From assembly GCA_001725415.1 (NCBI GenBank), contig MEGH01000025.1, forward strand, positions 1 through 58,263: DNA of 58,263 bases, given 5' to 3'. The stretch's first letter is position 1, and every line of letters begins with the position of its first letter. Position numbers and translations under genes: made by a program. The notes under the pieces are model-generated. The model worked only from the letters and a program-made list of their open reading frames with translations, made no database searches and was not told the DNA's origin. This DNA is from Pseudonocardia sp. SCN 73-27 (GTDB lineage Bacteria > Actinomycetota > Actinomycetes > Mycobacteriales > Pseudonocardiaceae). Below, one piece after another: positions 3,225 to 37,379 of this stretch.

Positions 3225-4412
3225 TCAGGCGCGGGAGCGGAGGGCCTCCTTCAGGCTGACGCGCGCGCCGGTGCGCAGCACGGAGTTGCGGTAGATCCGC
3301 GCCGCCGCGAGGACGACGCCGGCGATGGCCAGCAGCGTCAGGGCGATGGCGACGAGGACCTGCCACAGCGGTGCGACACCCATGGCGGCGCGGGCGGGCA
3401 TGAGCGTCGGTGAGAACAGCGGGATGAAGCTCAGGATCGTGCCGAGAGTGTTGCGCGGGTCGTTGGGCAGCACACTGACGGCGAAGATGAACGGGATGAA
3501 CAGCGGGAACATGATCGGCGCGACGGTCGACTGCAGCTCTTCCTGCCGCGACACGAGCGAGCCCGCGGCCGCGTAGATCGAGGCGTAGAGGAAGAACCCG
3601 AGCAGGTACCAGATCACGGCGGAGACGAGGGCGCCCGCGGCGGCGGTGGGGATCGTCAGGATGCCGGTGGTCAGGGAGCCGACGAGCCCGATGGCGCTGA
3701 GGATCAGCAGCTGTACGAGGCCGACCAGCCCGAGCCCGAGGATCTTCCCGGTGAGCAGGTGGACGGGCCGGATCGTCGACAGCAGGAGCTCGACGACGCG
3801 GCTGGACTTCTCCTCGACGACGCCCTGGGCGACGGCGCTGCCGTAGCCGACCAGCGACATGAACAGCAGGACGGCCACGACGATGGCGAGTACGAGGCGT
3901 TGTCCGCGTTCGGGATCGACGGGTTCCTGGGTGTCGACGGTGACGGCCCCGCGGGCGGCGACAGCGGCGGGGTCCTGGCCGGCGGCGGTGAGCGCCTGGG
4001 TGAGGGTGGTCTGCTGGACGGCGCCGGCGACGAGCTGCTGCAGCGAGGAGTCGACGGTGTCCTTGCCCAGCAGGGTCCAGGTGCCGGGACCACCGTCGAG
4101 AAGGGCGTCGAGGTCGCCGTCGGCCACCTGGGCCTCGCCGGTGGCGCGGTCGACCCGGGTGATGGTGAGGGTGCGGTCCTGGGCCTTCGCGGCGTCCTGC
4201 AGAGCGGGTTCGAGCGAGGCCGTGGACGAGGTGAGGCCGAGGCTGTTGCTGGAGCTCTGGCTCCCGATGAAGCTGAAGAGCGCGATGTAGATCGCGAAGA
4301 TGACGATGGTGACGAGCAGCCCGATGGCGAAGCTCTTGGACCGGACCTGGGTGGTGAACTCGCGGCGGGCGACGAGCGCGACGGCCCGGCCGGGCGTGAG
4401 CGGGGCGGTCAC
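3225..4412 (-). CDS. ABC-2 family permease (NatB/YhaP-like)
   Basis: Membrane half of an ABC exporter, 395 aa. After the basic start (ARREFTTQVRSK) there is one N-terminal membrane helix near residues 24-44, a large extracytoplasmic domain of about 120 residues, and five or so helices in the C-terminal half, including VLAIVVAVLLFMSLVGYG and the motif VVEEKSSRVVELLLSTI typical of NatB/ABC-2 proteins. The start is GTG at 4412, whose GTGA overlaps the stop of the ATPase gene, with GAGGAG just upstream, so the two are translationally coupled. The substrate is unknown; the family exports Na+, peptides or drugs. A longer frame upstream is antisense to the ATPase and is not used. Confidence 0.88.
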   Translation of the reverse strand: MTAPLTPGRAVALVARREFTTQVRSKSFAIGLLVTIVIFAIYIALFSFIGSQSSSNSLGLTSSTASLEPALQDAAKAQDRTLTITRVDRATGEAQVADGDLDALLDGGPGTWTLLGKDTVDSSLQQLVAGAVQQTTLTQALTAAGQDPAAVAARGAVTVDTQEPVDPERGQRLVLAIVVAVLLFMSLVGYGSAVAQGVVEEKSSRVVELLLSTIRPVHLLTGKILGLGLVGLVQLLILSAIGLVGSLTTGILTIPTAAAGALVSAVIWYLLGFFLYASIYAAAGSLVSRQEELQSTVAPIMFPLFIPFIFAVSVLPNDPRNTLGTILSFIPLFSPTLMPARAAMGVAPLWQVLVAIALTLLAIAGVVLAAARIYRNSVLRTGARVSLKEALRSRA

Positions 4413-5308
4413 GACTCCTCCTCGGTGGCGGGGGCGGCGACGACGTCGCGGTAGAGCTCGGTGAGCGGGGGCCGGTGCGGGCCGAAGGAATGCACGGGGC
4501 CTGCGGCCATGGCCGCGCGCAGTACGTCCTGGTCGGAGGCGCCGTCGAGCTCGACGCGGGTGGCGTGCGGCCCGGACTCGACGACGCGGACGCCGGGGAG
4601 CGAGTCGGCCCAGCCGGGTGGGGGTCCGGAGACGTCGATGCGTTCGGCATCGCCGGTGCGCAGCTCGTCGACGGTGCCTGCGGCGACCATCCGGCCGGCG
4701 GAGATGATGCCGACGCGGTCGCAGAGGCGTTCGACGAGGTCGAGCTGGTGGCTGGAGAAGATGACGGGCACGCCGGTGTCGGCCTTCTCGCGCAGGACTG
4801 TGCTCATGACCTCGACGGCGACGGGGTCGAGCCCGGAGAAGGGTTCGTCGAGGACGAGGACCTCGGGGTCGTGGACGAGAGCGGCGCACAGCTGGACGCG
4901 TTGCTGGTTGCCGAGGGAGAGCTTCTGGACCTCGTCGCGGATGCGGGACTCGACGCCGAGGCGTGAGGTCCAGCGTTCGACGGAGGCGCGGGCGTCGGCG
5001 GCGTCGAGGCCGTGGAGGCGGGCGAGGTACTCGAGCTGCTCGCCGACCTTCATCTTCGGGTAGAGCCCGCGCTCCTCGGGCATGTACCCGATCCGGCGAC
5101 GTACGTCGGCGTCGATCGGCCTGTCCTTCCAGCGGACCTCGCCGCCGTCGGACGTGAGCACCCCGAGCACGATCCGCATGGTCGTGGTCTTGCCGGCGCC
5201 GTTGCTGCCGACGAACCCGAAGAGCTCGCCGGGCTGCACGGCGAACGTCACCTGGTCGAGTGCTTGTACGTGGCCGAACCGCTTGCTGATCCCCCCGATG
5301 TCCAGCAT
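4409..5308 (-). CDS. ABC transporter ATP-binding protein (NatA-like)
   Basis: ATPase partner of the permease encoded next, 299 aa from ATG 5308 (MLDIGGISKRFG). Walker A GSNGAGKTTTM, Q-loop region YMPEERGLYP, signature LSLGNQQRV (LSxGN variant common in NatA types), Walker B VLVLDEPFSGLDP and switch SSHQLD are all present. The EERGLYP segment and the C-terminal extension of about 75 residues fit the DUF4162-containing bacitracin/Na-type subgroup. A GTG at 5344 would add 12 residues but falls within the terminator hairpin of the upstream regulator, so the ATG is preferred. It forms a two-gene operon with 3225-4412. Confidence 0.92.
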   Translation of the reverse strand: MLDIGGISKRFGHVQALDQVTFAVQPGELFGFVGSNGAGKTTTMRIVLGVLTSDGGEVRWKDRPIDADVRRRIGYMPEERGLYPKMKVGEQLEYLARLHGLDAADARASVERWTSRLGVESRIRDEVQKLSLGNQQRVQLCAALVHDPEVLVLDEPFSGLDPVAVEVMSTVLREKADTGVPVIFSSHQLDLVERLCDRVGIISAGRMVAAGTVDELRTGDAERIDVSGPPPGWADSLPGVRVVESGPHATRVELDGASDQDVLRAAMAAGPVHSFGPHRPPLTELYRDVVAAPATEEES

Positions 5309-5335
5309 GGACGCGACCCTAGCGGGATGGGACGA

Positions 5336-5356
5336 ACCGGGCACGACGTGCCCGGT
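5336..5356 (-). terminator. Hairpin downstream of the mim regulator
   Basis: Nine-bp arms, ACCGGGCAC and GTGCCCGGT, around a GAC loop, 10 bp past the regulator stop on the minus strand. It separates the regulator from the ABC pair transcribed in the same direction. There is no T-tract. Confidence 0.6.
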
Positions 5357-5365
5357 CCGCGAGGT

Positions 5366-7273
5366 TCAGCGCGAGTCGGCCAACTGTGGCAACGAGATCC
5401 CGTACCCGCGGATCTTGCGGTAGATCGTCGCGCGGGACATGCCGAGCTGGCGGGCGGCCTCGGCCTTGTTGCCGTCGGTGTCGAGGAGCGCGTCGACGAT
5501 GGCATCGCACTCGATGGCTTCGAGCGGGGTCAGGACGCGGCGGGTGGTGGCCCGGGTCTCGGCCGGCAGGTCGACCGGCGTGATGGTGCCGGACCGCTTG
5601 CGCGCCACGATCTTGCGCAGCACCTGGTAGAGCTGCTCGACGTTGCCGGGCCAGCGGTTGCGCATGAGCACGCGCATGGCCTCGGGGGAGCAGGTGAGGT
5701 CGGCGCCGCGGGTGAGGCGCGCGATGAGGTGCGGGACCAGCTCGGCGACGTCCTCGATGTGGTGACGCAGCGGCGGGACCTCGATGGTCCGGGGGAACGA
5801 GTCGAGCAGCTCGACCATGTCGGCGCCCGCGTCGGCGTGGGCGCGGTCGACGGTCGCGACGACCCAGGGCCGCTCGGGGTCGGTCGACTCCCGGTGGGGT
5901 TCGAGGGTGTCGGCGAGGGCGCGCAGGCCCTCGGGCGGCAGCGAGTCGACGTGGCAGAGCACCAGGGTGCCGCCATTGCCGGTCTCGAGCTCCTCGCCGA
6001 CGTCGGAGAGCCAGCGGGGGCCGAAGTCGGAGGCGTCCATGACGCGCAGGTGGGCGGCGGGGTTGCGCAGCTGGTGGGTGGCGCGCGCGAGGGTGCGCTT
6101 GCCGGAGCCGGGCTCGCCCTCGAGGACGAGCCACTCGCGGGCCTGCAGGTGCCGGTCGACGGCCTGCACGCACTTCGTCCACAAGGGTCCGGAGCCGACG
6201 GCGGCGGGCAGCGACGTGGGCGGCGGCAGCGAGAGCGACCGGGTGGGCGCGGTCTCGGCCGACACGAGCTGGACGTGCAGCACCCCGCCGGTGACGCCGT
6301 GCTCGCCCCAGCTGGGACGGGTCTGGACGCGGGCGATCGCGCCGCTGGGCAGGTCGACGAGCAGCTGGCGGCGACGGCCCGTGGCCAGCGCCTCGGCACC
6401 GTGCGAGAGCAGGGAGCTCTGGTCGTTGGGGTCGACGAGCTGGCGGGCCTGGTCGTTCATCATCAGCAGGTCGTCGCCCATGGCGATGACGGCGCCGCGG
6501 TTGCGCTGGCAGGCGGCCAGGTAGTCGTGCAGCAGGGAGAGCTCGCGCCGGCCGGAGTGCTCGAGCAGTGTTTCCTCGATGCGCCGGGCGATGTTGGTGG
6601 CGACGGCGACCATCATCCGGTTCGCCTCACGTCGCCAGCAGGTCAGGTCGATGACGCCGATGAGCTTGCCACTGACCGGGTGCCGGATCGGGGCGCCCGC
6701 GCAGGCGAACTCCTCGAGGTGCTCGACGTAGTGCTCGTGGCCGAACACGAGGGCGGGGCCACGGCCTTCCAGGGCGGTGCCGATGCCGTTGGTGCCGACG
6801 TAGCGCTCCGCGTAGCTGAAGCCCGGGGCGAGCCAGATGCGGTCGAGACCCTGGTTGAGCTTGCTGTCGCCGCTGCGTCGGTCGAGGACCACGCCCTCGT
6901 CGTCGCACAGGATGACGCTGACCGGCTCGGTCGCGAGCTGGTCGCTGGTCTCCGCGAGGATCGGGCCGGCGGCCCTGCTGAGCAGGGAGTCGACGTCGAA
7001 CTCGGTCTCGTACGGGAGGTCGAGGTGGTCGACGGGGACCTGGAAGTTCCGCGACCGCGTCCACGAGGCGAGGATCGGCGCGCGGACCACGCCGGGCTCG
7101 ACGTGGTCGTCGGTGAGGAAGGCGGAACGAGCCTCTGCGACCCGGACGGCGGCGGCACCGACCGGCACCCGCACGACGTCGCCGTCGGTGTCCGCCGACT
7201 GCGCGGGACGGGGGTTCGCGTGTTCCGTCGAGTGGCCCAACCGGTTGCCCTCCTGGATGCAGCCGCCTGTCAC
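5366..7273 (-). CDS. mimR: AcoR/MimR-type transcriptional activator of the monooxygenase operon
   Basis: Expected to switch on mimABCD in response to substrate or product. In 635 aa it shows an AcoR-type N-terminal region (ILASWTRSR at about 67-75), a GAF sensor domain (about 110-240; YVGTNGIGTALEGRGPALVFGHEHY), a central AAA+ domain with Walker A GEPGSGKRT (386-394) and a Walker-B-like segment GGTLVLCHVDSLPP (about 434), and a C-terminal Fis helix-turn-helix (about 600-622; KAEAARQLGMSRATIYRKI). The sigma-54 contact loop GAFTGA is absent and the Walker A-B interval is short, as expected in a phylum without sigma-54. It is transcribed divergently from mimA across 350 bp. The start used is GTG 7273; it lacks a clear ribosome-binding site and may lie downstream. 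In mycobacteria MimR is required for mimABCD transcription. Confidence 0.88.
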   Translation of the reverse strand: MTGGCIQEGNRLGHSTEHANPRPAQSADTDGDVVRVPVGAAAVRVAEARSAFLTDDHVEPGVVRAPILASWTRSRNFQVPVDHLDLPYETEFDVDSLLSRAAGPILAETSDQLATEPVSVILCDDEGVVLDRRSGDSKLNQGLDRIWLAPGFSYAERYVGTNGIGTALEGRGPALVFGHEHYVEHLEEFACAGAPIRHPVSGKLIGVIDLTCWRREANRMMVAVATNIARRIEETLLEHSGRRELSLLHDYLAACQRNRGAVIAMGDDLLMMNDQARQLVDPNDQSSLLSHGAEALATGRRRQLLVDLPSGAIARVQTRPSWGEHGVTGGVLHVQLVSAETAPTRSLSLPPPTSLPAAVGSGPLWTKCVQAVDRHLQAREWLVLEGEPGSGKRTLARATHQLRNPAAHLRVMDASDFGPRWLSDVGEELETGNGGTLVLCHVDSLPPEGLRALADTLEPHRESTDPERPWVVATVDRAHADAGADMVELLDSFPRTIEVPPLRHHIEDVAELVPHLIARLTRGADLTCSPEAMRVLMRNRWPGNVEQLYQVLRKIVARKRSGTITPVDLPAETRATTRRVLTPLEAIECDAIVDALLDTDGNKAEAARQLGMSRATIYRKIRGYGISLPQLADSR

Positions 7274-7623
7274 GTCGTCGCGGCAGGAGCCATCGATCCG
7301 GACGGTACCGCCCGGACGGGAGGAACGATAGGGGCCCGGGAACTGACCACCGTCTCATATTGAGACCGCAGGTCAGGCCGTACGGGGGTGTGATTCCCGG
7401 CACGAGAGGCAGTGCCCCGGGGACCCGCGAACCCCTGATCACCACCCCTCGTGTCCGAGTCGCCACCGAGGGCGCCCGCGCTGTCTCCCGGTGAAGGCCC
7501 GGGCTCGCGGTCGAGATACGTCCCGGCGGCACGTCCAGCCGCCGGCCGTGACGAGGCCGCGAGGGCAATGGGGTCGATGCGGTCCACGTGTCGAACCTGA
7601 TACCCACCACGTGAGGAGACGAT
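7274..7623. promoter_or_regulatory. Divergent mimR-mimA control region, 350 bp without genes
   Basis: The only gene-free stretch over 300 bp. It contains one clean 15-bp inverted repeat at 7352-7366 and a strong ribosome-binding site GTGAGGAGA just before mimA GTG 7624. No convincing -35/-10 pair and no GG-N10-GC sigma-54 promoter is visible. A TGATACC at about 7597 could be a -10 with a poor -35. Confidence 0.7.
7352..7366. promoter_or_regulatory. Candidate MimR operator
   Basis: Perfect dyad GTCTCA-TAT-TGAGAC, 258 bp before mimA and about 86 bp before the annotated mimR start. Fis-type activators of the AcoR group usually bind such interrupted dyads upstream of the promoter. Assignment to MimR is inference. 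Confidence 0.55.
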
Positions 7624-9276
7624 GTGAGTCGGCAGAGTCTGGCTAAGGCTCACCAGAAGATCCAGGAACTCTCCTGGGAGCCGCAGTACCACGAGCCGTA
7701 CATGAAGTACGGAACCGACTACACCTTCCGCAAGGCCGCGAAGAAGGACCCGCTCAAGCAGGTCCTGCGGTCTTACTTCCCCATGCAGGAAGAGAAGGAC
7801 CACCGCGTCTACGGCGCCTCCGACGGCGCGATTCGCGGGAACATGTTCCGGCAGGTGCAGGAGCGCTGGCTGGAGTGGCAGAAGCTGTTCCTCAGCATCA
7901 TCCCGTTGCCGGAGGTCTCGGCCGCGCGGTCGATGCCGATGCTGTTCCACGTGGTTCCGAACCCGGAGCTGCACAACGGCCAGGCCATTCAGATGATCGA
8001 CGAGGTTCGCCACTCGACGATCCAGCAGAACCTGAAGCGCCTGTACATGAACAACTACATCGACCCGGCGGGCTTCAACAACAGCCTGCGGAACTTCCAC
8101 AGCGACTACTGCGGCACCATCGGCCGTCAGTTCGCCGAGGGGTTCATCACCGGTGACGCGATCACCGCGGCGTCGATCTACCTGACCATCGTGGCCGAGA
8201 CGGCGTTCACCAACACGCTGTTCGTGGCCATGCCGGCAGAGGCCGCCGCCAACGGCGACTACCTGCTGCCGACGGTCTTCCACTCGGTGCAGTCCGACGA
8301 GTCGCGGCACATCTCCAACGGCTACGCCACCCTGCTCATGGCGCTGTCGGACGAGGACAACCGCCAGCTGCTCGAGCGCGACCTGCGCTACGCGTGGTGG
8401 AACAACCACCGCGTCGTCGACGCCGCCATCGGTACCTTCATCGAGTACGGCACGAAGGACCGCCGCAAGGACCGCGAGTCCTACGCGGAGATGTGGCGCC
8501 GCTGGATCTACGACGACTACTACCGCGCGTACCTGATCCCGCTCGAGAAGTACGGCCTGGTCATCCCGCACGACCTGATCGAAGAGTCGTGGAAGCAGAT
8601 CTGGGAGAAGGGCTACGTCCACGAGGTCGCGCAGTTCTTCGCCACCGGTTGGCTCGCCAACTACTGGCGTATCGACGGCATGACCGACGAGGACTTCGAG
8701 TGGTTCGAGTACAAGTACCCGGGCTGGTACGACAAGTACGGCAAGTGGTGGGAGAACTACAACCGCCTCGCCGTGCCGAACGGGCACAACCCGATCGTCT
8801 TCGAGGACGTGGACTACGTCTACCCGGCCCGCTGCTGGACCTGCATGGTCCCGTGTCTGGTCCGTGAGGACATGGTCATGGCCGACGTCGACGGGGTCAC
8901 CCGTACGTACTGCCACGAGGTCTGCCGTTGGACGGACGTCGAGGCCTTCCGCCCGACGTACCAGGGTCGCGAGACCCCGAACATGGGTCGCCTGGTCGGC
9001 CACCGCGAGTGGGAGACCCTGTACCACGGCTGGAACTGGGCCGATGTCGTGTCCGACATGGGCTTCGTTCGGGACGACGGCAAGACGATGACGGCGCAGC
9101 CGCATCTGAACCTCGACCCCAACAAGATGTGGACCCTGGACCACATGCGTCGTTGTCCTCCGCTGGCCAGCCCCAACGTGCTGGTCAACGAGATGGACGA
9201 CGCCGGTAAGGCGGCGTTCCACGCCGACTACATCCGTCAGGGCCCAGCCGGACGACCGGCACCTGAGAACGCCTGA
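7624..9276 (+). CDS. mimA: Propane/phenol-type diiron monooxygenase, large hydroxylase subunit
   Basis: Catalytic alpha subunit of a soluble diiron monooxygenase of the MimA/PrmA type, which in mycobacteria and Rhodococcus oxidises propane, acetone and phenols with O2 and NADH. It has 550 residues, the family length. All six iron ligands are recognisable: E97 (LPEVSAARS), E127 and H130 (IDEVRH), E192 (AETAFTN), E226 and H229 (SDESRH). The C-terminal part has RCWTCMVPCLVRED and YCHEVCRW, a Cys-rich pattern of this subfamily. The start GTG 7624 is set by GAGGAGA and by the N-terminus MSRQSLAKAH shared with homologues. First gene of the operon. A hairpin in the gap before mimB may raise mimA transcript level over the rest. 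The actual substrate is not readable from sequence. Confidence 0.96.
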   Translation: MSRQSLAKAHQKIQELSWEPQYHEPYMKYGTDYTFRKAAKKDPLKQVLRSYFPMQEEKDHRVYGASDGAIRGNMFRQVQERWLEWQKLFLSIIPLPEVSAARSMPMLFHVVPNPELHNGQAIQMIDEVRHSTIQQNLKRLYMNNYIDPAGFNNSLRNFHSDYCGTIGRQFAEGFITGDAITAASIYLTIVAETAFTNTLFVAMPAEAAANGDYLLPTVFHSVQSDESRHISNGYATLLMALSDEDNRQLLERDLRYAWWNNHRVVDAAIGTFIEYGTKDRRKDRESYAEMWRRWIYDDYYRAYLIPLEKYGLVIPHDLIEESWKQIWEKGYVHEVAQFFATGWLANYWRIDGMTDEDFEWFEYKYPGWYDKYGKWWENYNRLAVPNGHNPIVFEDVDYVYPARCWTCMVPCLVREDMVMADVDGVTRTYCHEVCRWTDVEAFRPTYQGRETPNMGRLVGHREWETLYHGWNWADVVSDMGFVRDDGKTMTAQPHLNLDPNKMWTLDHMRRCPPLASPNVLVNEMDDAGKAAFHADYIRQGPAGRPAPENA

Positions 9277-9294
9277 GCGCGGGTCAGGTGAGGG

Positions 9295-9327
9295 GGAAGG
9301 GCCGGCGGCGCCACCGTCGGCCCTTCC
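9295..9327 (+). terminator. mimA-mimB intergenic stem-loop
   Basis: A 14-bp stem, GGAAGGGCCGGCGG with CCGTCGGCCCTTCC (one G-U), around CGCCA, with no T-tract. As mimB-D must be co-expressed with mimA, it is more likely an attenuator or 3'-end stabiliser than a full terminator. Confidence 0.6.
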
Positions 9328-9378
9328 TCTGCCAGGCCGAGTTCAGTTCATGTAGCTGGTCGACCGGTAAAGGAAGTC

Positions 9379-9729
9379 ATGGGTAACAAGCACATCGTGC
9401 GGTTCGAGCCGGTGGGCATCGAGATCGAGGTCGACGAGGACCAGAACATCCTTCGTGCCGCCGCCGAGCAGGGCGTCCAGCTCATGCACGGCTGCAAGGA
9501 AGGTCAGTGCGCCGCCTGCAAGTCCTTCGTGCTCGAGGGTGAGGACATCGACTACGACTCGTACTCGACGTTCGCGCTCCCGGACTACGAGAAGGAGGAG
9601 GGCCAGACCCTCCTGTGCAGGGCCCACGCGTACGAGGATCTGGTGATCGAGCTCCTCAACTACGACGAGGAGATCATCCGCAGCGGGCTGCCGCTGAAGA
9701 AGGGTGTCGCGGAGGTGGTCTCCAACTAG
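9379..9729 (+). CDS. mimB: Monooxygenase reductase, N-terminal [2Fe-2S] domain, ended by an in-frame TAG
   Basis: First half of the NADH:hydroxylase reductase. The 116 residues form a plant-type ferredoxin domain with the cluster cysteines C39, C44, C47 (CKEGQCAAC) and C80 (TLLC). The frame stops at TAG 9727-9729, right after GVAEVVSN. Reading on in the same frame gives AVTHDMRHLVLKL and the complete FAD/NAD domain, so intact mimB would be about 351 residues, the normal family size. One base change (for example GAG to TAG) explains the break. ATG 9379 is the expected start; GGTAAAGGAAG precedes it. As annotated the product could be a free ferredoxin-like protein. See the entry for 9745-10434. 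Confidence 0.85.
   Translation: MGNKHIVRFEPVGIEIEVDEDQNILRAAAEQGVQLMHGCKEGQCAACKSFVLEGEDIDYDSYSTFALPDYEKEEGQTLLCRAHAYEDLVIELLNYDEEIIRSGLPLKKGVAEVVSN
9727..9729 (+). other. In-frame amber codon splitting mimB
   Basis: TAG sits at the domain boundary of mimB, with no frameshift: ATG 9745 is 366 nt (122 codons) from ATG 9379. Homologous reductases read through this position with a sense codon; Glu is my recollection of the family, not a check. The operon shows no other damage. Confidence 0.85.
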
Positions 9730-9744
9730 GCCGTCACCCACGAC

Positions 9745-10434
9745 ATGCGGCATCTCGTGCTCAAGCTCCTCGAGCCCGAGGAGATCAAGTTCTTCCCGGG
9801 TCAGTATCTCGACATCATGGTGCCCGGCACCGAGGAGAGCCGCTCGTTCTCCATGGCCAACGTTCCGGGCCGCGAGGGACACTTCGAGTTCGTCATCAAG
9901 ATCTATCCCGACGGACTGTTCTCGGAGTTCCTCGCAGAAAAGGTCTCGGTCGGCGACCGGCTCGACGTCGAGGGTCCTTTCGGGACCTTCACGTTGCGCG
10001 AAAGCCGCTCCTCGCCGCTGATCTTCGTCGGTGGCGGGGCGGGGCTGGCTCCGGTTCTGGGTCTGCTGCGTTCGATGGCGGACCGTGGGGTCGAGCGTGA
10101 GGCCGTCTTCTACTACGGGGCCCGTGGGCAGCGGGACCTGTGTTTCGAGAAGGAACTGCGGGAGCTCGAGGAGCGAATCCCGAACTTCCGGTACGTCCCA
10201 GCCCTGTCGGAGCCGGCGGACGGCGACGACTGGGGCGGCGAGGTCGGGCTGATCACCGACGTGGTGAAGCGGCTCGAGTCGAGCCTGTCCGGGCGGGACG
10301 CCTATGTCTGTGGACCGCCGCCGATGGTGGACGCGGCGATCCCGGTGCTCGAGGCACTCGGCGTGCCCGAGCAGAACATCTTCTACGACAAGTTCACCAC
10401 CACCGGTGAACAAGGAGGCGAGGACGGCCAATGA
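9745..10434 (+). CDS. mimB: Monooxygenase reductase, C-terminal FAD/NADH domain (second half of mimB)
   Basis: FAD- and NADH-binding half of the hydroxylase reductase, 229 residues from ATG 9745. It shows the FAD motif RSFSMAN, the NAD-binding GGGAGLAPVLGLL, YVCGPPPMVDAA and the C-terminal NIFYDKF. It is in frame with the ferredoxin half, 15 nt beyond the TAG. No good ribosome-binding site lies at a proper distance; GGAGG at 9711 is about 28 nt away, so translation would need re-initiation after the TAG or readthrough. Starting at this ATG also removes part of the first beta-strand of the FAD domain. The stop overlaps the mimC start (ATGA). If nothing restores it, the monooxygenase lacks its electron supply unless another reductase substitutes. 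Confidence 0.8.
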   Translation: MRHLVLKLLEPEEIKFFPGQYLDIMVPGTEESRSFSMANVPGREGHFEFVIKIYPDGLFSEFLAEKVSVGDRLDVEGPFGTFTLRESRSSPLIFVGGGAGLAPVLGLLRSMADRGVEREAVFYYGARGQRDLCFEKELRELEERIPNFRYVPALSEPADGDDWGGEVGLITDVVKRLESSLSGRDAYVCGPPPMVDAAIPVLEALGVPEQNIFYDKFTTTGEQGGEDGQ

Positions 10435-11614
10435 CGACCACTCAACGTCCGGAACGCAGCGTTCCGAAGCCTACTTTCACCGACGCCGAGGCCGGCGCCC
10501 AGGAATTCCCCGACTCCAGCGCGAGCGCACGTCGCTACAACTACTACAAGCCTGCCAAGCGCAAGCAGACGCACTACGAGGACGTCACCGTCGACGTCCA
10601 GCCGGACCCGCGGCACTACCTCTCCCAGGGGTGGATCTACGGGTTCGCCGACGGCTCCCGCGGCTACCCGCTCACCTGGACGAAGCTCAAGGCCTGGGGC
10701 GTCGACGAGCCGGAGCCGGAGCGCGGCATCGGCTCCGGCGGGCGTCACGTCGCGGACTGGCCGGCCCACGGCTGGCACGAGTTCCGTGACCCCAACGAAG
10801 AATGGGAGATGACGTTCTACCGCTACAACGCGAACGTCGTCCGCCAGGTCAACCAGAACATCGAGAACGCCCGGGTCGCGAAGGCCTTCGACCAGTGGAC
10901 CCCCAACTGGGTCCAGTTCGTCGAGCGCAACGTCGGTGCGTGGATGCACGTCGAGCACATCCTCGGTCTGTACGTGTTCGCCGCGTGCAACCGGTCCGCG
11001 CCCACGAACATGCACAACACCGCCATCGCGGTGAACAGCATGCACAAGATCCGGTTCGCCCAGGACCTGGCGCTGTACAACCTCACGCTGTCGGAGGAGG
11101 TCGAGGGCTTCGACGGCACCGCGCACCTCGACGCCTGGAACAACGACGAGGTGTGGCAGGGCGTCCGCAAGGTGACCGAGGCCCTCACGGCCGTCGACGA
11201 CGACTGGGGCGAGATGATGTTCGCCGCGAACGTCGTCTTCGAGCCGCTGATCGGCGAGCTGTTCCGGTCGAACCTCGTGATGCAGGCGGCCGCCGGCAAC
11301 GGCGACTTCGTCACCCCGACCGTGATGGGCGCGGCGGAGTACGACTACGCCCAGCGCGACCTGCGCTGGACGCAGGCCTGCTTCGGTCCGCTCACCCAGG
11401 ACCGCGAGTTCGCCGACCACAACAAGCAGCTCATGCAGGGATGGCTGTCGCACTGGGTGCCGCAGGCGCTCGAGGCGGCTCGCACCCTGCAGCCGATCTG
11501 GTCGCTGCCCGACGCCAAGCCCCCGCGTTTCGAGGACAGCCTCGACCGCGCCAAGAACCGGTTCGCCGGAATCGTCTCCGATCTCGGACTGGAAGCCCCG
11601 AAGGAGCTGAACCT

Positions 11615-11618
<4 letters not shown>
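10431..11618 (+). CDS. mimC: Diiron monooxygenase, small hydroxylase subunit
   Basis: Beta subunit that pairs with MimA in the hydroxylase. It is a ferritin-like fold that has lost the iron ligands. The 395 residues fit MimC/PrmC. Typical segments are SARRYNYYKPAKRKQTHYEDVT near the N-terminus, QGWIYGFADGSRGYP, and the helix around VERNVGAWMHVEHILGLY. The ATG overlaps the mimB stop, and its own TGA overlaps mimD GTG, so B-C-D are translationally coupled. No damage is visible, which argues that the mimB stop is recent or tolerated. Confidence 0.95.
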
Positions 11619-13808
<2,190 letters not shown>

Positions 13809-13815
13809 CCCGCCG

Positions 13816-13852
13816 CGTCCCGCCCCGGTCTCACGAGGACCGGGGCGGGACG
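13816..13852 (+). terminator. Strong hairpin after groEL
   Basis: Fifteen paired bases, CGTCCCGCCCCGGTC with its complement, around TCACGAG, followed by ACTTTCG. Best candidate for the end of the mim operon transcript. Confidence 0.75.
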
Positions 13853-13937
13853 ACTTTCGCGGGGCGACGAGTGCGGGCCCGGTGGCGGGCGACCGAGGAC
13901 GCGGCATCGGGCATCGACCGGCCGGGAGGAGACCACG

Positions 13938-15080
13938 ATGTACCGCAGCGCGACCGCCGACTTCGTGGTCGTCGACGCCCAGGTGCACGCGTGGGACGGC
14001 AGCCCGTCGAACCAGGCGGGTCCGTCCGGGGAGGCCTACGTCGCCGAGCTGTACCGGCGCCACCGCCTGCTCGACCGCCAGCCCAACGCCGTCGACGCCG
14101 ACGAGTTCGCCCGCGTCACCGGGGAGGGCCTGCGTTCCGACGTCATCGGCGGCCACGTCGACCGGGCCGTGCTCCAGCCGCTGACCCTCGACGACCTGTT
14201 CGTCCTCGGGTTCAGCCCGACCGCCTGGCACGCCGAGCTCGCCGAAGAGCTGCCCGGCCGCTTCGTCCTCGCAGGCGAGGTCGACCCGGCACTGGGATCG
14301 GCGGGCGCACGCGGCCTCGCCGCCCGAGTCCGCAACGCCGACCTCCGCGGCCTGCACCTCGCCCCCGTGCACCGTCCCGGCGCCCGGATCCCCTTGGGGG
14401 AGCCGTGGTTGCGCCGGGTCCTGGCGCGGGCCGAGCAGTCGGGCGCGGCCGTCGTCCACCTCGGGGTCGGGCCGTCGACACCCTCGTGGCCGGGGGTGCC
14501 CGGATGGGCGATCCCGCGACGTGCCGACGTCGCCGCCGCGGCCGCCCGCCCCCGCCGCTGGCCCGACTGGGCCCACCCCGTCCGCGCCGGGTCGGCGCTG
14601 CCGGTGCGGTCGCCCGACCGCTCCGCAGGCCAGGGCGGGTTCGACCCGACGCAGCTGCGCGACCTCGCCGCCGCGCTGCCGCGCGTGCAGTTCGTCCTCG
14701 GCGCGGCCTGCATGCCGACGGCGAGCCTCTGCCGGCTCGCCCGGCTGCCCAACGTGCACGTCCTGCTCACCGAGCTGCTCGCCGGGCTGCGGCTGCACCG
14801 CGTCGACGCCGCCCGCGCATTCGGCGCGCTCCTGGAGGCGTTCGGCGTGCACCGCATGCTCTTCGGCAGCGGCTACCCTCTGATCCGGCCCGCCCGGCTG
14901 GTGCGTGAGCTCGTCGAGTTCCGGTTCCCCGACGAGCTGTGCGGCCGCTACGCCGACCTCGACGACATGGGCCGTCAGGCCATTCTCGGCGGCAATGCCG
15001 CCCGGCTCTACCGCATCCCGTTGCCCGCCGGTGCCGTTCCCGCGGTCCCGGCCGCGCTGCGCCCCGGCGCCGGCTCCTGA
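13938..15080 (+). CDS. Amidohydrolase-2-like protein of the mim locus, metal site degenerate
   Basis: TIM-barrel protein of the amidohydrolase_2 type, 380 aa, of the kind found in mycobacterial mim loci; its role there is unknown. The N-terminal metal motif, normally DxHxH, reads VVDAQVHAW (D13, Q15, H17), so one His is Gln. Near the C-terminus the usual GSD(Y/W)P is LFGSGYPLI, so the metal-ligand Asp is Gly. It may be a non-catalytic or differently metallated member. GGGAGGAGACC precedes ATG 13938. It lies after the groEL terminator, so it needs readthrough or its own promoter. Family assignment is moderately firm; catalytic activity is doubtful. Confidence 0.75.
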   Translation: MYRSATADFVVVDAQVHAWDGSPSNQAGPSGEAYVAELYRRHRLLDRQPNAVDADEFARVTGEGLRSDVIGGHVDRAVLQPLTLDDLFVLGFSPTAWHAELAEELPGRFVLAGEVDPALGSAGARGLAARVRNADLRGLHLAPVHRPGARIPLGEPWLRRVLARAEQSGAAVVHLGVGPSTPSWPGVPGWAIPRRADVAAAAARPRRWPDWAHPVRAGSALPVRSPDRSAGQGGFDPTQLRDLAAALPRVQFVLGAACMPTASLCRLARLPNVHVLLTELLAGLRLHRVDAARAFGALLEAFGVHRMLFGSGYPLIRPARLVRELVEFRFPDELCGRYADLDDMGRQAILGGNAARLYRIPLPAGAVPAVPAALRPGAGS

Positions 15081-15092
15081 CGGGTTTCTCCC

Positions 15093-15114
15093 GATGGGAC
15101 GTGTACGTCCCGTC
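15093..15114. terminator. Short dyad after the amidohydrolase gene
   Basis: GATGGGACGT and ACGTCCCGTC (one G-U) around GT. It could terminate the upstream gene or bind a regulator of the downstream symporter. Confidence 0.4.
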
Positions 15115-15263
15115 CGAACGGGGTAGCCCGACCGAGGCGCCGCTCGGCCGAGTGGCGCCCGGCCGTCGACCAGGCCCGGCCCGCGCGCAGTGGGGACCGG
15201 GACTGCTCCCGGTTGCAGGTGACGGTCGCCGGCCCCACGGCGGCGACTCTCGGGAGGTACGGC

Positions 15264-16613
15264 ATGACCACGACCGGCGCCGAACAGCGGCAGGACGGTC
15301 CCGAACACAGCGAGGTACCGGAGTCGACCGTCCGCAAGGCGGTCGGCGCGGCGGCGATGGGCAACCTCGTCGAATGGTTCGACTACGGCATCTACAGCTA
15401 CGTGACCGTGTACATCGCGGCGAGCATCCTCGGCGGTGAGAGCAGCTCCAACGTCGGTCTGGTTCTGGCTCTTTTCGCGGTCGCGTACCTGGTCAGACCG
15501 TTCGGTGGGATCGTTCTCGGACCCCTCGGCGACCGCATCGGCCGCAAGAAGGTCCTGGCGATGACGATCGTCACGATGTCCGGCGCGAGCTTCCTGCTCG
15601 GCTGTCTGCCGACGTTCTCCGTCGCCGGCTGGGGCGCGCCCGTCCTGCTGATCCTGATCCGGCTGGTCCAGGGCTTTGCGACCGGCGGCGAGTACGGCGG
15701 CGCGGCCGCGTTCATCGCCGAGTACGCCCCCGACAAGAAACGCGGCTTCTACTGCAGCTTCCTCGAGTTCGGCACGACCGGCGGGTTCGTCCTCGCCGCG
15801 GGCATGGTCACGATCCTCGAGGTCACGCTGTCGGACGCCGCCATGCACGCCTGGGGCTGGCGCATCCCGTTCCTCATCGCCGGCCCGCTCGGCCTGATCG
15901 GTCTGTGGCTGCGGTCGAAGCTGGAGGACACCCCGGCGTTCAAGGCGCTGGAGGACAAGGCCGAGGTCTCCGACTCGCCGCTCAAGGACGTCCTCACCAA
16001 GCACTGGCGCCCGATCCTCGTCTGCATCGGCCTCGTGCTGTTCTACAACGTCGCCGTCTACACGGTGCTGTTCTACATGCCCACCTACCTGCAGACGACG
16101 CTCAAGCTCGAGGCGACGCCCGCCCTGCTCTACGTGCTCGGCATGATGCTGGTGATCATGTTCGTGATCATCCCCGTCGGTGCTCTGTCCGACCGGATCG
16201 GCCGGAAGCCGCTGATCGTGACGTCGTGCATCGGGTTCATCGTGCTGTCCTACCCGGCGTTCCTGCTGCTGGACTCGTCGACGGTGTGGGGCACGGTCCT
16301 CGGCCTCGTGATCCTGGCGTTGCTGCTGGTCATGCTGCTCGGCACGATGTCGGCCACGCTGCCCGCACTGTTCGACACCGAGGTGCGCTACGGCGGCTTC
16401 TCCATCGGCTACAACATCTCGACGTCGATCTTCGGTGGCACGGCGCCCGCGATCCTGGCCTGGCTCGTGACCGCGACGGGGAACAACGCCTTCCCCGGTG
16501 TCTACCTCGCGGTGGCGTCGCTGATCTCGCTGGTGGCGGTCGTCGTCGTCAAGGAGAGCGCGCGCAAGCCGCTGCCCGGCGCCGTCCAGACCTCCGTGTC
16601 GTCGGCCGCCTGA
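15264..16613 (+). CDS. MHS-family metabolite:H+ symporter (MFS)
   Basis: Twelve-helix secondary transporter, 449 aa, of the metabolite:proton symporter branch (ProP, KgtP, ShiA relatives). Diagnostic are GNLVEWFDYGIYSY at the first helix, DRIGRKKVLAMTI in loop 2-3, FATGGEYGGAAAF in helix 5 and SDRIGRKPLI in loop 8-9. ATG 15264 follows GGGAGG at 7 nt; an upstream in-frame extension is ignored. Being next to the mim genes it may import a co-metabolised carboxylate, but substrate class cannot be derived from sequence. Its 3' end overlaps the convergent gene 16502-17272 by 112 nt. Confidence 0.88.
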   Translation: MTTTGAEQRQDGPEHSEVPESTVRKAVGAAAMGNLVEWFDYGIYSYVTVYIAASILGGESSSNVGLVLALFAVAYLVRPFGGIVLGPLGDRIGRKKVLAMTIVTMSGASFLLGCLPTFSVAGWGAPVLLILIRLVQGFATGGEYGGAAAFIAEYAPDKKRGFYCSFLEFGTTGGFVLAAGMVTILEVTLSDAAMHAWGWRIPFLIAGPLGLIGLWLRSKLEDTPAFKALEDKAEVSDSPLKDVLTKHWRPILVCIGLVLFYNVAVYTVLFYMPTYLQTTLKLEATPALLYVLGMMLVIMFVIIPVGALSDRIGRKPLIVTSCIGFIVLSYPAFLLLDSSTVWGTVLGLVILALLLVMLLGTMSATLPALFDTEVRYGGFSIGYNISTSIFGGTAPAILAWLVTATGNNAFPGVYLAVASLISLVAVVVVKESARKPLPGAVQTSVSSAA

Positions 16614-20006: not shown

Positions 20007-20642
20007 TCAGTGACCCCGCCTGATCCACTCCTCGAGGTGGGGCAGCTCGGCGCCGATCGTGGTCGAGTCGCCGTGGCCCGTGCGGACCACCGTGTCGCCG
20101 GGCAGCGTGAGCAGCCGGTCGCGGATCGAGTCGATGATCGTGTCGAACGACGAGTACGACCGCCCCGTCGCGCCGGGTCCACCGTTGAACAGGGTGTCAC
20201 CGGTGAACAGCGTGCCCAGGTCCTCGGCGTAGAGGCAGGTCGAGCCGGGGGAGTGACCCGGCGTCGTGATGGCCCGCAGCCTCACCCCACCCGCCTCGAT
20301 GACGTCGCCGTCGCGCAGCTCACGGTCGGGCTTGCGGTCGGGCCAGGTCATCTCCCACAGCGGCGCCTCGGCCGCGGCCAGCAGGATCGGCGCGTCGAAG
20401 CGGTCCGACAGCTGGGGCGCCTGGTTGACGTGGTCGTCGTGGGCGTGCGTGCACACCACGGCGACGACGCGGCGGCCCGCGACGGCCTCGGCGATCTTCT
20501 CCAGGTCGTGGGCGGCGTCGACGACGACGACCTCGTTCTCGTCACCGACGACCCAGACGTTGTTGTCGACCTCCCAGGTGCCCCCGTCGAGGGAGAACGT
20601 GCCGGAGGTGACGACGTGGTCGACGGGGCCCGAGGGCGGCAT
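20007..20642 (-). CDS. MBL-fold hydrolase partner of MscR (Rv2260-like)
   Basis: Metallo-beta-lactamase-fold hydrolase, 211 aa, with THAHDDHVNQ, TTPGHSPGST, GDTLFNGG and TGHGDST, which make up the binuclear metal site. It is encoded directly after mscR with TGATG overlap, the same pairing as Rv2259-Rv2260 in M. tuberculosis. Expected to hydrolyse the S-formyl-mycothiol (or a related thioester) made by MscR, like a glyoxalase II; this role is inference from neighbourhood and fold. A family-1 palindrome ends the transcript. Confidence 0.88.
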   Translation of the reverse strand: MPPSGPVDHVVTSGTFSLDGGTWEVDNNVWVVGDENEVVVVDAAHDLEKIAEAVAGRRVVAVVCTHAHDDHVNQAPQLSDRFDAPILLAAAEAPLWEMTWPDRKPDRELRDGDVIEAGGVRLRAITTPGHSPGSTCLYAEDLGTLFTGDTLFNGGPGATGRSYSSFDTIIDSIRDRLLTLPGDTVVRTGHGDSTTIGAELPHLEEWIRRGH

Positions 20643-21727
20643 CAGAGGACCACCACCGAACGCAGGACCTCGCCGCGTTCCATCCGGTGGAAGGCCTCCT
20701 CGACGGCGTCGAGCCCGATCTCCTCGGAGACGAACTTGTCCAGCGGCAGCCGGCCCTGCAGGTAGAGGTCGATCAGCATCGGGAAGTCGCGGGAGGGCAG
20801 GCAGTCGCCGTACCAGGACGACTTGGTGGCGCCACCGCGCCCGAAGATCTCGATCATCGGGATCTCGAAGGTCATCTCCGGGGTCGGGACGCCGACCAGC
20901 ACCGCGGTGCCGGCGAGGTCGCGGGCGAAGAACGCCTGCTTGAGCGTCTCGGGCCGGCCCACGGCGTCGACGACGACGTCGGCGCCGTTGCCCCCGGTGA
21001 GCTCCTTGATGGCCTCGACCGCGTCGACCTCACGGGAGTTGACGAGGTGGGTGGCGCCGAAGCCCTTGGCCCACTCCAGCTTCGTGGGGTCGACGTCGAC
21101 GGCGATGATCGTCGTCGCGCCGACGAGGTTGGCGCCCGCGATCGCGGCGTTGCCGACGCCGCCGCAGCCGATGACGGCGATGGAGTCGCCGCGGGCCACG
21201 CCGCCGGTGTTGATCGCGGCACCGATGCCCGCCATCACGCCGCAGCCCAGCAGGCCGGCCGCCGCGGGCCGTGCCGAGGAGTCGACCTTGGTGCACTGGC
21301 CTGCGGCGACCAGCGTCTTCTCCGCGAACGCGCCGATGCCCAGCGCCGGGGACAGCTCCCGGCCGTCGGCGAGGGTCATCTTCTGCGTGGCGTTGTGGGT
21401 GTTGAAGCAGTACTGCGGCTTGCCCTTGGCGCACGCGCGGCACTCGCCGCAGACGGCGCGCCAGTTGAGGATGACGAAGTCGCCGGGGGCGACGTCGGTG
21501 ACACCGTCACCCACCGACTCCACGATGCCTGCGGCCTCGTGGCCGAGCAGGAACGGGAACTCGTCGTTGATGCCGCCCTCGCGGTAGTGCAGGTCGGTGT
21601 GACACACCCCGCAGGCCTGGATCGCGACGACCGCCTCACCGGGGCCGGGGTCGGGGACGGTGATCGTCTCGACGGAGACGGGCGCACCCTTGCTGTGGGC
21701 GACGACCGCGCGGACCTGTTGCGACAT
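20642..21727 (-). CDS. mscR: S-(hydroxymethyl)mycothiol dehydrogenase / S-nitrosomycothiol reductase
   Basis: Zinc-dependent class III-like alcohol dehydrogenase using mycothiol to oxidise formaldehyde and reduce S-nitrosomycothiol. 361 residues. Catalytic zinc site: CGVCHTDLH and GHEAAG. Structural zinc lobe: [15 protein letters not shown]. Nucleotide fold: [12 protein letters not shown] followed by acidic VDVD, indicating [19 protein letters not shown] and the [12 protein letters not shown] region match MscR. It forms a two-gene operon with the MBL hydrolase. Mycothiol use itself marks an actinomycete. Could support formaldehyde handling when C1 compounds arise from monooxygenase substrates. 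Confidence 0.93.
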
Positions 21728-22609: not shown

Positions 22610-22659
22610 CGTCGCGTTCGTCCAGTCGCCGCCGCCGCCCCGCGCGGCAGGGTCGCACC

Positions 22660-22934
22660 ATGACGGAACCGACCCGCACCTTCGAGCTCCCGACGTGGGA
22701 GGACGAGGTCTACGCCGAGCCCGACGGGAGTACGCGATGGTGCGGCTGACCAAGACGTGGGACGGCGGGATCGTCGGCAGCAGCGAGGGACGGCTGCTGC
22801 AGGTGTTCCTGCCCACGGGCGCCGCGGCCTACGTGGGCATCGAGCGGGTCGAGGCGAGCGTCGACGGCCGGACGGGCACGTTCGTGCCGCAGCACATCGC
22901 CGCGGGCGACGCGACGGGCGGTGCGGGCCGCTAG
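22660..22934 (+). pseudogene. DUF3224 gene with a -1 frameshift and lost C-terminus
   Basis: Two overlapping frames together give one DUF3224 protein. Frame 1 from ATG 22660 encodes 29 residues (RTFELPTWEDEVYAEPDG) and stops at 22749. The next frame picks up GEYAMVRLTKTWDG and continues VGSSEGRLLQVFLPTG and YVGIERVEASVDGRTGTFV to a TAG at 22932-22934. The shift is one missing base in GGG at 22726-22728. The usual further 35-45 C-terminal residues (GTWTVVPGSGTGEL-like) are absent. DUF3224 proteins are lipocalin-like with no known activity. A sequencing slip could explain the shift but not the missing end. Confidence 0.65.
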
Positions 22935-22945
22935 CGTCTGCGGGT

Positions 22946-24106
22946 ATGGGATCACCGGTGATCGGGACGGGGCTCGCGCTCGGGGTGGTGGCCGGGACGG
23001 GCAGGCCCGGGCCGTCGCGGATCGCCGCGCCCACCCCGGCGGGCCCCCTCGACGTCGGAGGCATCGCCGCCACCGAGAAGACCGCCTTCGCCGAGACGCT
23101 CGGCCACCCGACCCTCGACGCGCTGCTCGCCGCGGGCCGCCCGATGTGGGCCGACGTCGTCGGCTGGCTCGGCGAGCGGCTGGCCGATCCCGACCGGATC
23201 GCACCGTTCCTGTTGCCCGACAACGGGATCGTGCCGGTGCTGCCGTTCACGGTCGCCGACTACGTCGACTTCTACGCCTGCGAGCAGCACGCGATCAACG
23301 GCGCACAGATCCTGCGCCCGGGCAGCGCGACGACCGCGCCGAACTGGCGGCACCTGCCCGTCGGCTACCACGGCCGGGCGGGGACGGTCGTCGTCAGCGG
23401 GACGCCGGTGACCCGGCCGTGGGGGCAGCGCGCGGCCGGTGACTACGGGCCGACCCGGGCGCTCGACGTCGAGGCCGAGCTGGGGTTCGTCTGCGGCGGA
23501 CCGGCGCGGAGCCCCGTGCCGGTGGACGACGCGTTGGACCACGTCTTCGGCGTCGTGCTCCTCAACGACTGGTCGGCGCGTGACGTGCAGTCGTTCGAGT
23601 CACGCCCGCTCGGGCCGATGCTGGGCAAGTCCTTCGCGACGGCGGTCTCCGCCTGGGTCACGCCGCTCGACGTGCTCGAGGCCGCGTGGGTCGACCCGCC
23701 CCCGCGCGACCCCGAGCCACTGCCGCACCTGCGCGGCAAGGCCGACCGCGGCCTCGACGTCACGATGGAGATCCGGCTCGGTGGCGAGCTCGTGTCGTCG
23801 CCACCCGCGGCCGACCTCTACTGGACGCCCGCGCAGCTCGTCACCCACCTGACGTCGAACGGGGCGTCGTTGCGGCCCGGGGACCTGCTGGGGTCGGGCA
23901 CGGTGTCGGGGGCGCGGCGCGAGCAGTGGGGCAGCTTCCTGGAGCTGTCGTGGGGTGGCGAGGACCCGGTCGCGCTGGCCGGCGGCGAGACCCGCACCTA
24001 CCTCGAGGACGGCGACGAGGTCGTCATCTCGGCGACGTTCCCCGGGCCGGGCGGGACGCGGCTCGCGCTGCCCGAGGTGCGCAACCGTGTCGTGCCCGCG
24101 CGCTGA
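22946..24106 (+). CDS. fahA: Fumarylacetoacetase
   Basis: Last step of homogentisate/tyrosine breakdown: fumarylacetoacetate to fumarate and acetoacetate. 386 aa from ATG 22946. FAH-family core is intact: VADYVDFYACEQHA, VGYHGRAGTVVVSG (catalytic His), LDVEAELGFVCGG, LLNDWSARDVQSFE, PLGPMLGKSFATAVS and LGSGTVSG. The N-terminal SH3-like domain is somewhat shorter than in typical 400-420-residue enzymes. No other homogentisate genes are nearby, so its partners are elsewhere. Confidence 0.9.
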   Translation: MGSPVIGTGLALGVVAGTGRPGPSRIAAPTPAGPLDVGGIAATEKTAFAETLGHPTLDALLAAGRPMWADVVGWLGERLADPDRIAPFLLPDNGIVPVLPFTVADYVDFYACEQHAINGAQILRPGSATTAPNWRHLPVGYHGRAGTVVVSGTPVTRPWGQRAAGDYGPTRALDVEAELGFVCGGPARSPVPVDDALDHVFGVVLLNDWSARDVQSFESRPLGPMLGKSFATAVSAWVTPLDVLEAAWVDPPPRDPEPLPHLRGKADRGLDVTMEIRLGGELVSSPPAADLYWTPAQLVTHLTSNGASLRPGDLLGSGTVSGARREQWGSFLELSWGGEDPVALAGGETRTYLEDGDEVVISATFPGPGGTRLALPEVRNRVVPAR

Positions 24107-36326: not shown

Positions 36327-37306
36327 CAGCGGACCCCCAGCACCACGACGCCCGCGGCGAGACCGCACAGGATCGCGACGACGAACGTCGCCGGGGCGAA
36401 CCGGGCCGCGAACGCCCGGCCGAACGTGCCCGCCTGCAGAGCGACGAGCTTGACATCGACCGCCGGGCCGACGACCAGGAACACCAGTCGGGGCACCAGC
36501 GGCATCGCCGACAGCGACGCCGCGACGAACGCGTCGGCCTCGCTGCACAGCGCCAGCACCACCGCCAGCACGGCCATGACCAGCACCGCGAGCAGCCACT
36601 GGTCGGCGAGCCCGGCCGTCCACGACGCCGGGACCAGCACCGACAGGCACGACGCCACCAGTGCGCCGACGACGAGCAGACCACCGGCCGAGACCAGGTC
36701 GTGGCGCGCCGACTCCGCGAACACCGCCCACCTGTTGCCGCCCTGCGGGACCGGGGTGCGGACGCGCTCCGCGATCCACTCCACCTTCCCGGCGCGCTGC
36801 CACAACCAGCCCATGACGCACGCCGTCGCCAGCGACCCGACCGCCCGCGCCACCACCACGCCCGGCTCGCCGGGGAACGCGACGGCCGTCGCCACCAGGA
36901 CGACGGGGTTCACCGCCGGCGCCGCGAGCAGGAACGCGAGCGCCGCCGCCTCCGGCACGCCCTGGCCGATCAGCCTGCGCGCCACCGGCACCGACGCGCA
37001 CTCGCACCCCGGCAACGCCAGCCCCGCGAGGCCCGCCACCGGCACCGCCGCACCTGTCCGGCTCGGCAGCACCCGGCGCAGCGCCGCGGGCGACACGAAC
37101 GCCGCGATCGCCCCCGACACCAGCACCCCGAGCACCAGGAACGGCAGCGCCTGCACGCAGATCGCGACGAACACCGTCGCCACCGTGCGCACCACCGGCG
37201 CGCCCAGCACCTCGACGATCCACGGGCGGGCGACCAGCGCCACGACCAGCAGGGCCGCGAACACGTAGAGCGAGTTCACCCGGGCCGGGCGCTCGGTCGT
37301 CGTCAC
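36326..37306 (-). CDS. UPF0718/DUF318 permease
   Basis: 326 residues with eight or so membrane helices. Family marks: LPGCECASVPVARRLIGQGVP (seen as LPGCECASVPVARRL), FLLAAPAVNPVVLVATAVAF, and CSEADAFVAASLSAMP in the second half. The GCECxS and CSEAD motifs bear the conserved cysteines of the family. First gene of the two-gene unit with the TIGR03943 protein. Transport substrate is unknown. Confidence 0.87.
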   Translation of the reverse strand: MTTTERPARVNSLYVFAALLVVALVARPWIVEVLGAPVVRTVATVFVAICVQALPFLVLGVLVSGAIAAFVSPAALRRVLPSRTGAAVPVAGLAGLALPGCECASVPVARRLIGQGVPEAAALAFLLAAPAVNPVVLVATAVAFPGEPGVVVARAVGSLATACVMGWLWQRAGKVEWIAERVRTPVPQGGNRWAVFAESARHDLVSAGGLLVVGALVASCLSVLVPASWTAGLADQWLLAVLVMAVLAVVLALCSEADAFVAASLSAMPLVPRLVFLVVGPAVDVKLVALQAGTFGRAFAARFAPATFVVAILCGLAAGVVVLGVR

Positions 37307-37379
37307 GAAGTGGATCGTGCCGCATCGGGCTGCTCAGCCGGCGAGGAACCGCCGAGCCGGTTGCGTCCGAAAAGCCTGC

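Follow-up and report, generated by a model that had tools for sequence, protein, structure and literature searches.

A Mim/Prm-type reductase gene interrupted by a single in-frame TAG, probably a recent nonsense allele, in a Pseudonocardia genome

The window, meaning the whole 58,263-base stretch of DNA analysed here, corresponds to bases 1-58263 of contig C25. The genome it comes from is 6.95 Mb long, is assembled in 99 contigs and has a completeness of 99.99. Among named relatives, P. dioxanivorans CB1190 and Pseudonocardia sp. N23 are the nearest to this genome. The part of the window that concerns us carries a monooxygenase gene cluster with these features.

5366-7273, minus strand: divergent GAF/Fis-family regulator (635 aa, stop-free; GAF, AAA_lid_14 and HTH_8)
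7624-9276, plus strand: mimA/prmA-type hydroxylase large subunit (550 aa, GTG start, intact; Pfam Phenol_Hydrox, 1.5e-58)
9379-9729, plus strand: upstream piece of mimB, with the 2Fe-2S ferredoxin domain, a linker and the start of the first strand of the FAD barrel (Fer2, 7.4e-14); ends at the TAG
9727-9729, plus strand: in-frame TAG (codon 117; sense in all 59 other genus places)
9745-10434, plus strand: downstream piece of mimB, with the FAD barrel minus its first strand and the NAD-binding domain (FAD_binding_6; NAD_binding_1, 3.2e-20)
10431-11618, plus strand: mimC-type hydroxylase small subunit (intact, stop-free; Phenol_Hydrox, 1.5e-42)
11615-11992, plus strand: mimD-type coupling protein (125 aa, intact; MmoB_DmpM, 1.3e-23)
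12123-13808, plus strand: GroEL-like chaperonin gene, mimG-type (561 aa; Cpn60_TCP1, 2.6e-73)

The two mimB pieces belong together. The ORFs at 9379-9729 (116 aa) and 9745-10434 (229 aa) share one frame, offset by 366 bases, and this frame (351 aa as a whole) is open throughout except for the TAG. The downstream piece starts at the first ATG past the stop, 15 bases after it (codon 123). Intact orthologues in N23 and CB1190 align across codons 1-351 with the TAG as the sole interruption, which indicates a single gene that has been split, as opposed to a chance pair of ORFs. All four ferredoxin cysteines (Cys 39, 44, 47 and 80), invariant in the family alignment, are in the window translation. 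The frame lies between the A and C hydroxylase genes, its end overlapping the mimC start by 4 bases, with the D gene and the GroEL-like gene following. By its sequence, the gene at 9379-10434 is a Mim/Prm-type reductase gene (mimB/prmB) interrupted by one stop, and here the preliminary description, which had proposed an in-frame split by a single TAG, is borne out. It was also right that the halves and mimA, mimC and mimD carry no other damage, as mimA, mimC and mimD, and the GroEL-like gene too, are stop-free and align at full length with N23, and the halves show no stop but the TAG. The mimA product is 99.3% identical to its counterparts in both N23 and CB1190, 124 of 124 mimD residues align with the N23 orthologue, and so do 635 of 635 residues of the regulator.

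The cluster resembles known ones. Published prmABCD clusters are described as running A-B-C-D, with genes for a GroEL-like protein and a Fis-family regulator close by (PMC4428276), and the window has the same arrangement. Likewise, a table for strain DSM 45062 gives MimA 550, MimB 348, MimC 395, MimD 131 and MimG 561 aa, similar to the 550, 351 (whole frame), 395, 125 and 561 aa of the window (PMC7176365). The same table lists an alcohol dehydrogenase, Adh1, with MimG on one side and an amidohydrolase-like protein on the other, whereas in the window an amidohydrolase directly follows the GroEL-like gene (PMC7176365). The 129 bases between these two window genes (13809-13937) hold no alcohol dehydrogenase. 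Two ORFs elsewhere in the window, 20642-21727 and 39256-40368, both on the minus strand, we take by eye to be alcohol-dehydrogenase-like. The mim region (4369-13849) is 93% identical to N23 in DNA; most other listed pieces of the window are at about 83-89%, with the exception of 1-848 (95%).

What sets the window apart from Mim/Prm reductases is the in-frame TAG at codon 117. A survey of the genus gave a DNA match, some only short, in 59 of 62 genomes (own included), and the stop column was analysed in all 60 near-full-length places, window included. The residue there is E in 43, D in 11, N in 2 and Q, T or S in 1 each; the one stop is that of the window. Homologues aligned at this position thus have a sense codon in 59 of 59 other genus places, with an acidic residue in 54. 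The same stop occurs in 0 of these 59. No stop stands at the column in a second set of 47 loci either; 35 of these have Pseudonocardia titles and come mostly from the organisms of the genus places. At the column of ATG 9745, ATG is found in 52 of 60 places (window included; 51 of 59 others), CTG in 5, ATC in 2 and CTC in 1.

Reductases with other interruptions were also seen. That of Pseudonocardia sp. CNS-139 (L077, the same as L134) has a frame that ends at codon 290, in the NAD domain, and its C-terminal part continues in another frame. It is a different lesion in a different place from the window TAG. A MAG locus (L072) has a reductase with a frame break, and its match stops at the locus end.

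Where the stop cuts the protein matters for what the pieces could do. In the intact N23 and CB1190 proteins, Pfam places FAD_binding_6 at residues 112-204, so that residue 117 is the sixth residue of the match in the two intact relatives scanned. The preliminary description had placed the TAG between the two electron-transfer domains, and this is inexact. Its suggestion of a modular version of a fused reductase is weakened too, since the cut falls within the FAD domain. The FAD_binding_6 match of the downstream piece begins at profile position 16, compared to 3 in the intact relatives. An AlphaFold model of the N23 reductase (37-row alignment, mean pLDDT 75.9, pTM 0.60, mean 86 over block 111-120) has strands at 107-120 and 123-132, and residue 117 is within the former. 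According to this model, the TAG interrupts the FAD barrel within its first strand. A product begun at ATG 9745 would therefore be predicted to lack that strand.

Other chains bear on this prediction. Two stand-alone modules, flavin reductase (1qfj) and the FAD/NAD part of MMO component C (1tvc), consist of the two domains that the downstream piece carries. For both, and for 6l2u (FAD only), the match to the family profile begins at position 110, ahead of the stop, and the three appear to contain the strand that is left on the upstream piece of mimB here. Other, more distant FAD/NAD chains have match starts from 108 to 165 among the reductase rows listed (for example, 4eh1 at 135), and since these local matches start elsewhere, the case for the lost strand depends mostly on the closer chains and the N23 model. 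The fused ferredoxin-FAD-NAD reductases GcoB (5ogx, 4.8e-64), BenC (1krh, 2.1e-59) and T4moF (4wqm, 2.3e-49) match nearly the whole profile of the intact relatives. Each of these is one chain, whereas the window chain is interrupted in the first FAD-barrel strand. It thus lacks the complete FAD and NAD domains on one chain with the ferredoxin that characterize a working MimB/PrmB reductase.

Despite the stop, both halves of mimB still look constrained. We counted window-unique codons against N23 and CB1190, and the synonymous to non-synonymous ratio is 4:1 in the upstream piece and 8:1 in the downstream piece (total 12:2). Elsewhere it is 8:1 in mimA, 11:0 in mimC, 7:2 in mimD and 34:9 in the GroEL-like gene. 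Pairwise dN/dS values are 0.138 (window-N23), 0.089 (window-CB1190) and 0.100 (N23-CB1190) for the downstream piece and 0.078, 0.104 and 0.021, respectively, for the upstream piece, the last from very few changes. Under neutrality, finding at most 1 non-synonymous change of 9 in the downstream piece has a p of about 1e-4. A rough Poisson bound, based on the assumption of a selected ratio of 0.1 and on tree-free parsimony, limits the unconstrained share of the branch to at most about 11% for this piece. There is no clear relaxed selection. Constraint kept in both halves leaves three readings of the stop (very recent origin, an error, or tolerance of it), which these data do not separate.

The reading we favor (probability about 0.6) is a recent nonsense allele of an otherwise normal mimB/prmB gene, expected to deprive the monooxygenase, whose other parts are intact, of its electron supply. 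The stop is private to one genome, the orthologues in relatives are intact and no wider decay is seen. An ordinary recent nonsense pseudogene allele has the same pattern, and we found no difference from it. The TAG read at codon 117 would end translation begun at 9379, releasing a free ferredoxin domain. Little or no working reductase would be made, because the downstream piece has no recognizable ribosome-binding site and would be without the first barrel strand. NADH electrons would then no longer reach the hydroxylase via its own reductase. The substitution pattern suggests that the operon is otherwise intact because the lesion is too young for decay to have followed. Counted against this reading, the constraint and strong domain matches in both pieces would suit a young lesion, an error or a tolerated stop equally. 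The preliminary description had offered four options: recent loss, a wrong base, re-initiation and read-through. The first two fit best, and the other two find no positive support beyond the retained constraint. As recent loss and a wrong base explain that constraint equally well, it lends no special support to re-initiation or read-through.

The main rival is a wrong base: the draft assembly would have an error in its consensus here, and the gene would be intact in the organism. We consider this unlikely, but it deserves the most serious attention of the alternatives. It would fit a change that affects one codon only, is private to the window genome, leaves neither half with relaxed constraint and occurs in a draft in 99 contigs. 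However, substitution errors are generally rare in such assemblies, and this assembly is not visibly error-ridden. Orthologues were scanned for stops in strongly constrained comparisons (pN/pS below 0.25, 150 aa or more). Against CB1190, the window gave 16 ORFs and 2 stops, one in mimB and one at residue 53 of 494; against N23, it gave 24 ORFs and 1 stop, that in mimB. In 100 kb of contig C5, a stop was found in 1 of 22 comparisons with CB1190 and 0 of 32 with N23. This C5 stop, a TGA, is four codons into the aligned part of its ORF and probably ahead of the true start. The TGA at residue 53 of the 494-aa CB1190 ORF (26052) was also set aside, being ahead of the start of the N23 counterpart (26103). 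Stops admitted by looser thresholds fall in ORFs opposite a real gene (36426-37358) or in ORFs without coding base composition (22643-24103 and 23997-23368). Partial alignments (under 85%) made up 2 of the 16 comparisons with CB1190 and 4 of the 24 with N23 in the window; for C5 the counts were 2 of 22 and 0 of 32. In the reverse direction, stops in the relatives' copies were found in 1 of 19, 1 of 20, 1 of 21 and 2 of 30 comparisons; four of the five are near the end of an ORF or alignment, and the fifth, from the set of 19, affects residue 67 of a 632-aa ORF that is over-long. Apart from the mimB stop, the scan against CB1190 and N23 thus turned up no convincing internal stop, either across the window or in the 100 kb of C5, and an error-prone assembly was rejected as a general cause. 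So far as tested, the mimB stop appears to be an isolated lesion.

It is improbable that the pieces work as two separate proteins, a free ferredoxin and a reductase re-initiated at ATG 9745. The shared frame, short gap and available ATG would permit this, as would the strong domain matches and constraint of both pieces. However, no recognizable Shine-Dalgarno sequence precedes ATG 9745. Its duplex with the anti-Shine-Dalgarno sequence has an energy of -2.4 kcal/mol, a value reached by 61% of positions 7624-16599, compared to -10.9 for mimC, -8.3 for mimA, -7.3 for mimD and -4.9 for mimB. The mimB start itself is modest (reached by 25% of the same positions), so this argument against ATG 9745 is not absolute. 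In addition, the methionine is missing in 8 of 59 other genus places and the first barrel strand, which 1qfj, 1tvc and 6l2u appear to keep, would be lost. The split lies inside that strand and not at a domain boundary, and it recurs in no relative. For the missing Shine-Dalgarno sequence, the methionine not always kept and the lost strand, we judge a working split by re-initiation unlikely.

More doubtful again is a real, tolerated stop, with the free ferredoxin fed by another cellular reductase or by a re-initiated FAD/NADH piece. In that case, a reductase that is a single chain in almost every relative examined would exist here in two pieces. This genome has one match to the upstream piece at the DNA level and, at the protein level, 10 matches other than the downstream piece itself, with 27-35% identity. 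A close paralog as backup was rejected, because the three best of these 10 FAD/NAD matches (C41, C24 and C86) are only 32-35% identical. By eye, the C41 ORF is presumably flavohemoglobin-like, and those on C24 and C86 adjoin ORFs that we take to be molybdopterin-oxidase-like. A TGA inside the C86 match looks like the boundary with the preceding gene.

Least probable is that the TAG is read through often enough to give some full-length reductase: the downstream piece is constrained, its frame is open to the normal end and low-level near-cognate misreading may occur, but the genome offers no sign of amber suppression or pyrrolysine use. Among its 46 tRNA matches, all run through ARAGORN, 0 have a CUA anticodon, although these are family-model matches that an unusual tRNA or one in an assembly gap could escape. 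RF1 is over the cut-off and intact, while the sole PylS-like match is below it (1 of 14 controls was over the cut-off). We thus found neither a suppressor or pyrrolysine tRNA with its synthetase nor a stop conserved in place among relatives. As mimD also terminates in TAG, this codon serves as an ordinary stop here.

If the nonsense allele is real, the strain would be a natural variant with a Mim/Prm-type monooxygenase but no reductase of its own for it, and so of use in testing whether other reductases can feed the hydroxylase. Otherwise, it calls for caution from annotators, as the cluster appears complete by domain content yet is probably without electron supply, or carries a base error. 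Outside the window, the genome has four more Phenol_Hydrox matches, on contigs C62, C34 and C81 (L207-L209). Those on C62 and C34 lie no more than 2.5 kb from a contig end. Small ORFs adjoining these extra matches on C62, C34 and C81 are presumably Rieske-ferredoxin-like, judged by motif.
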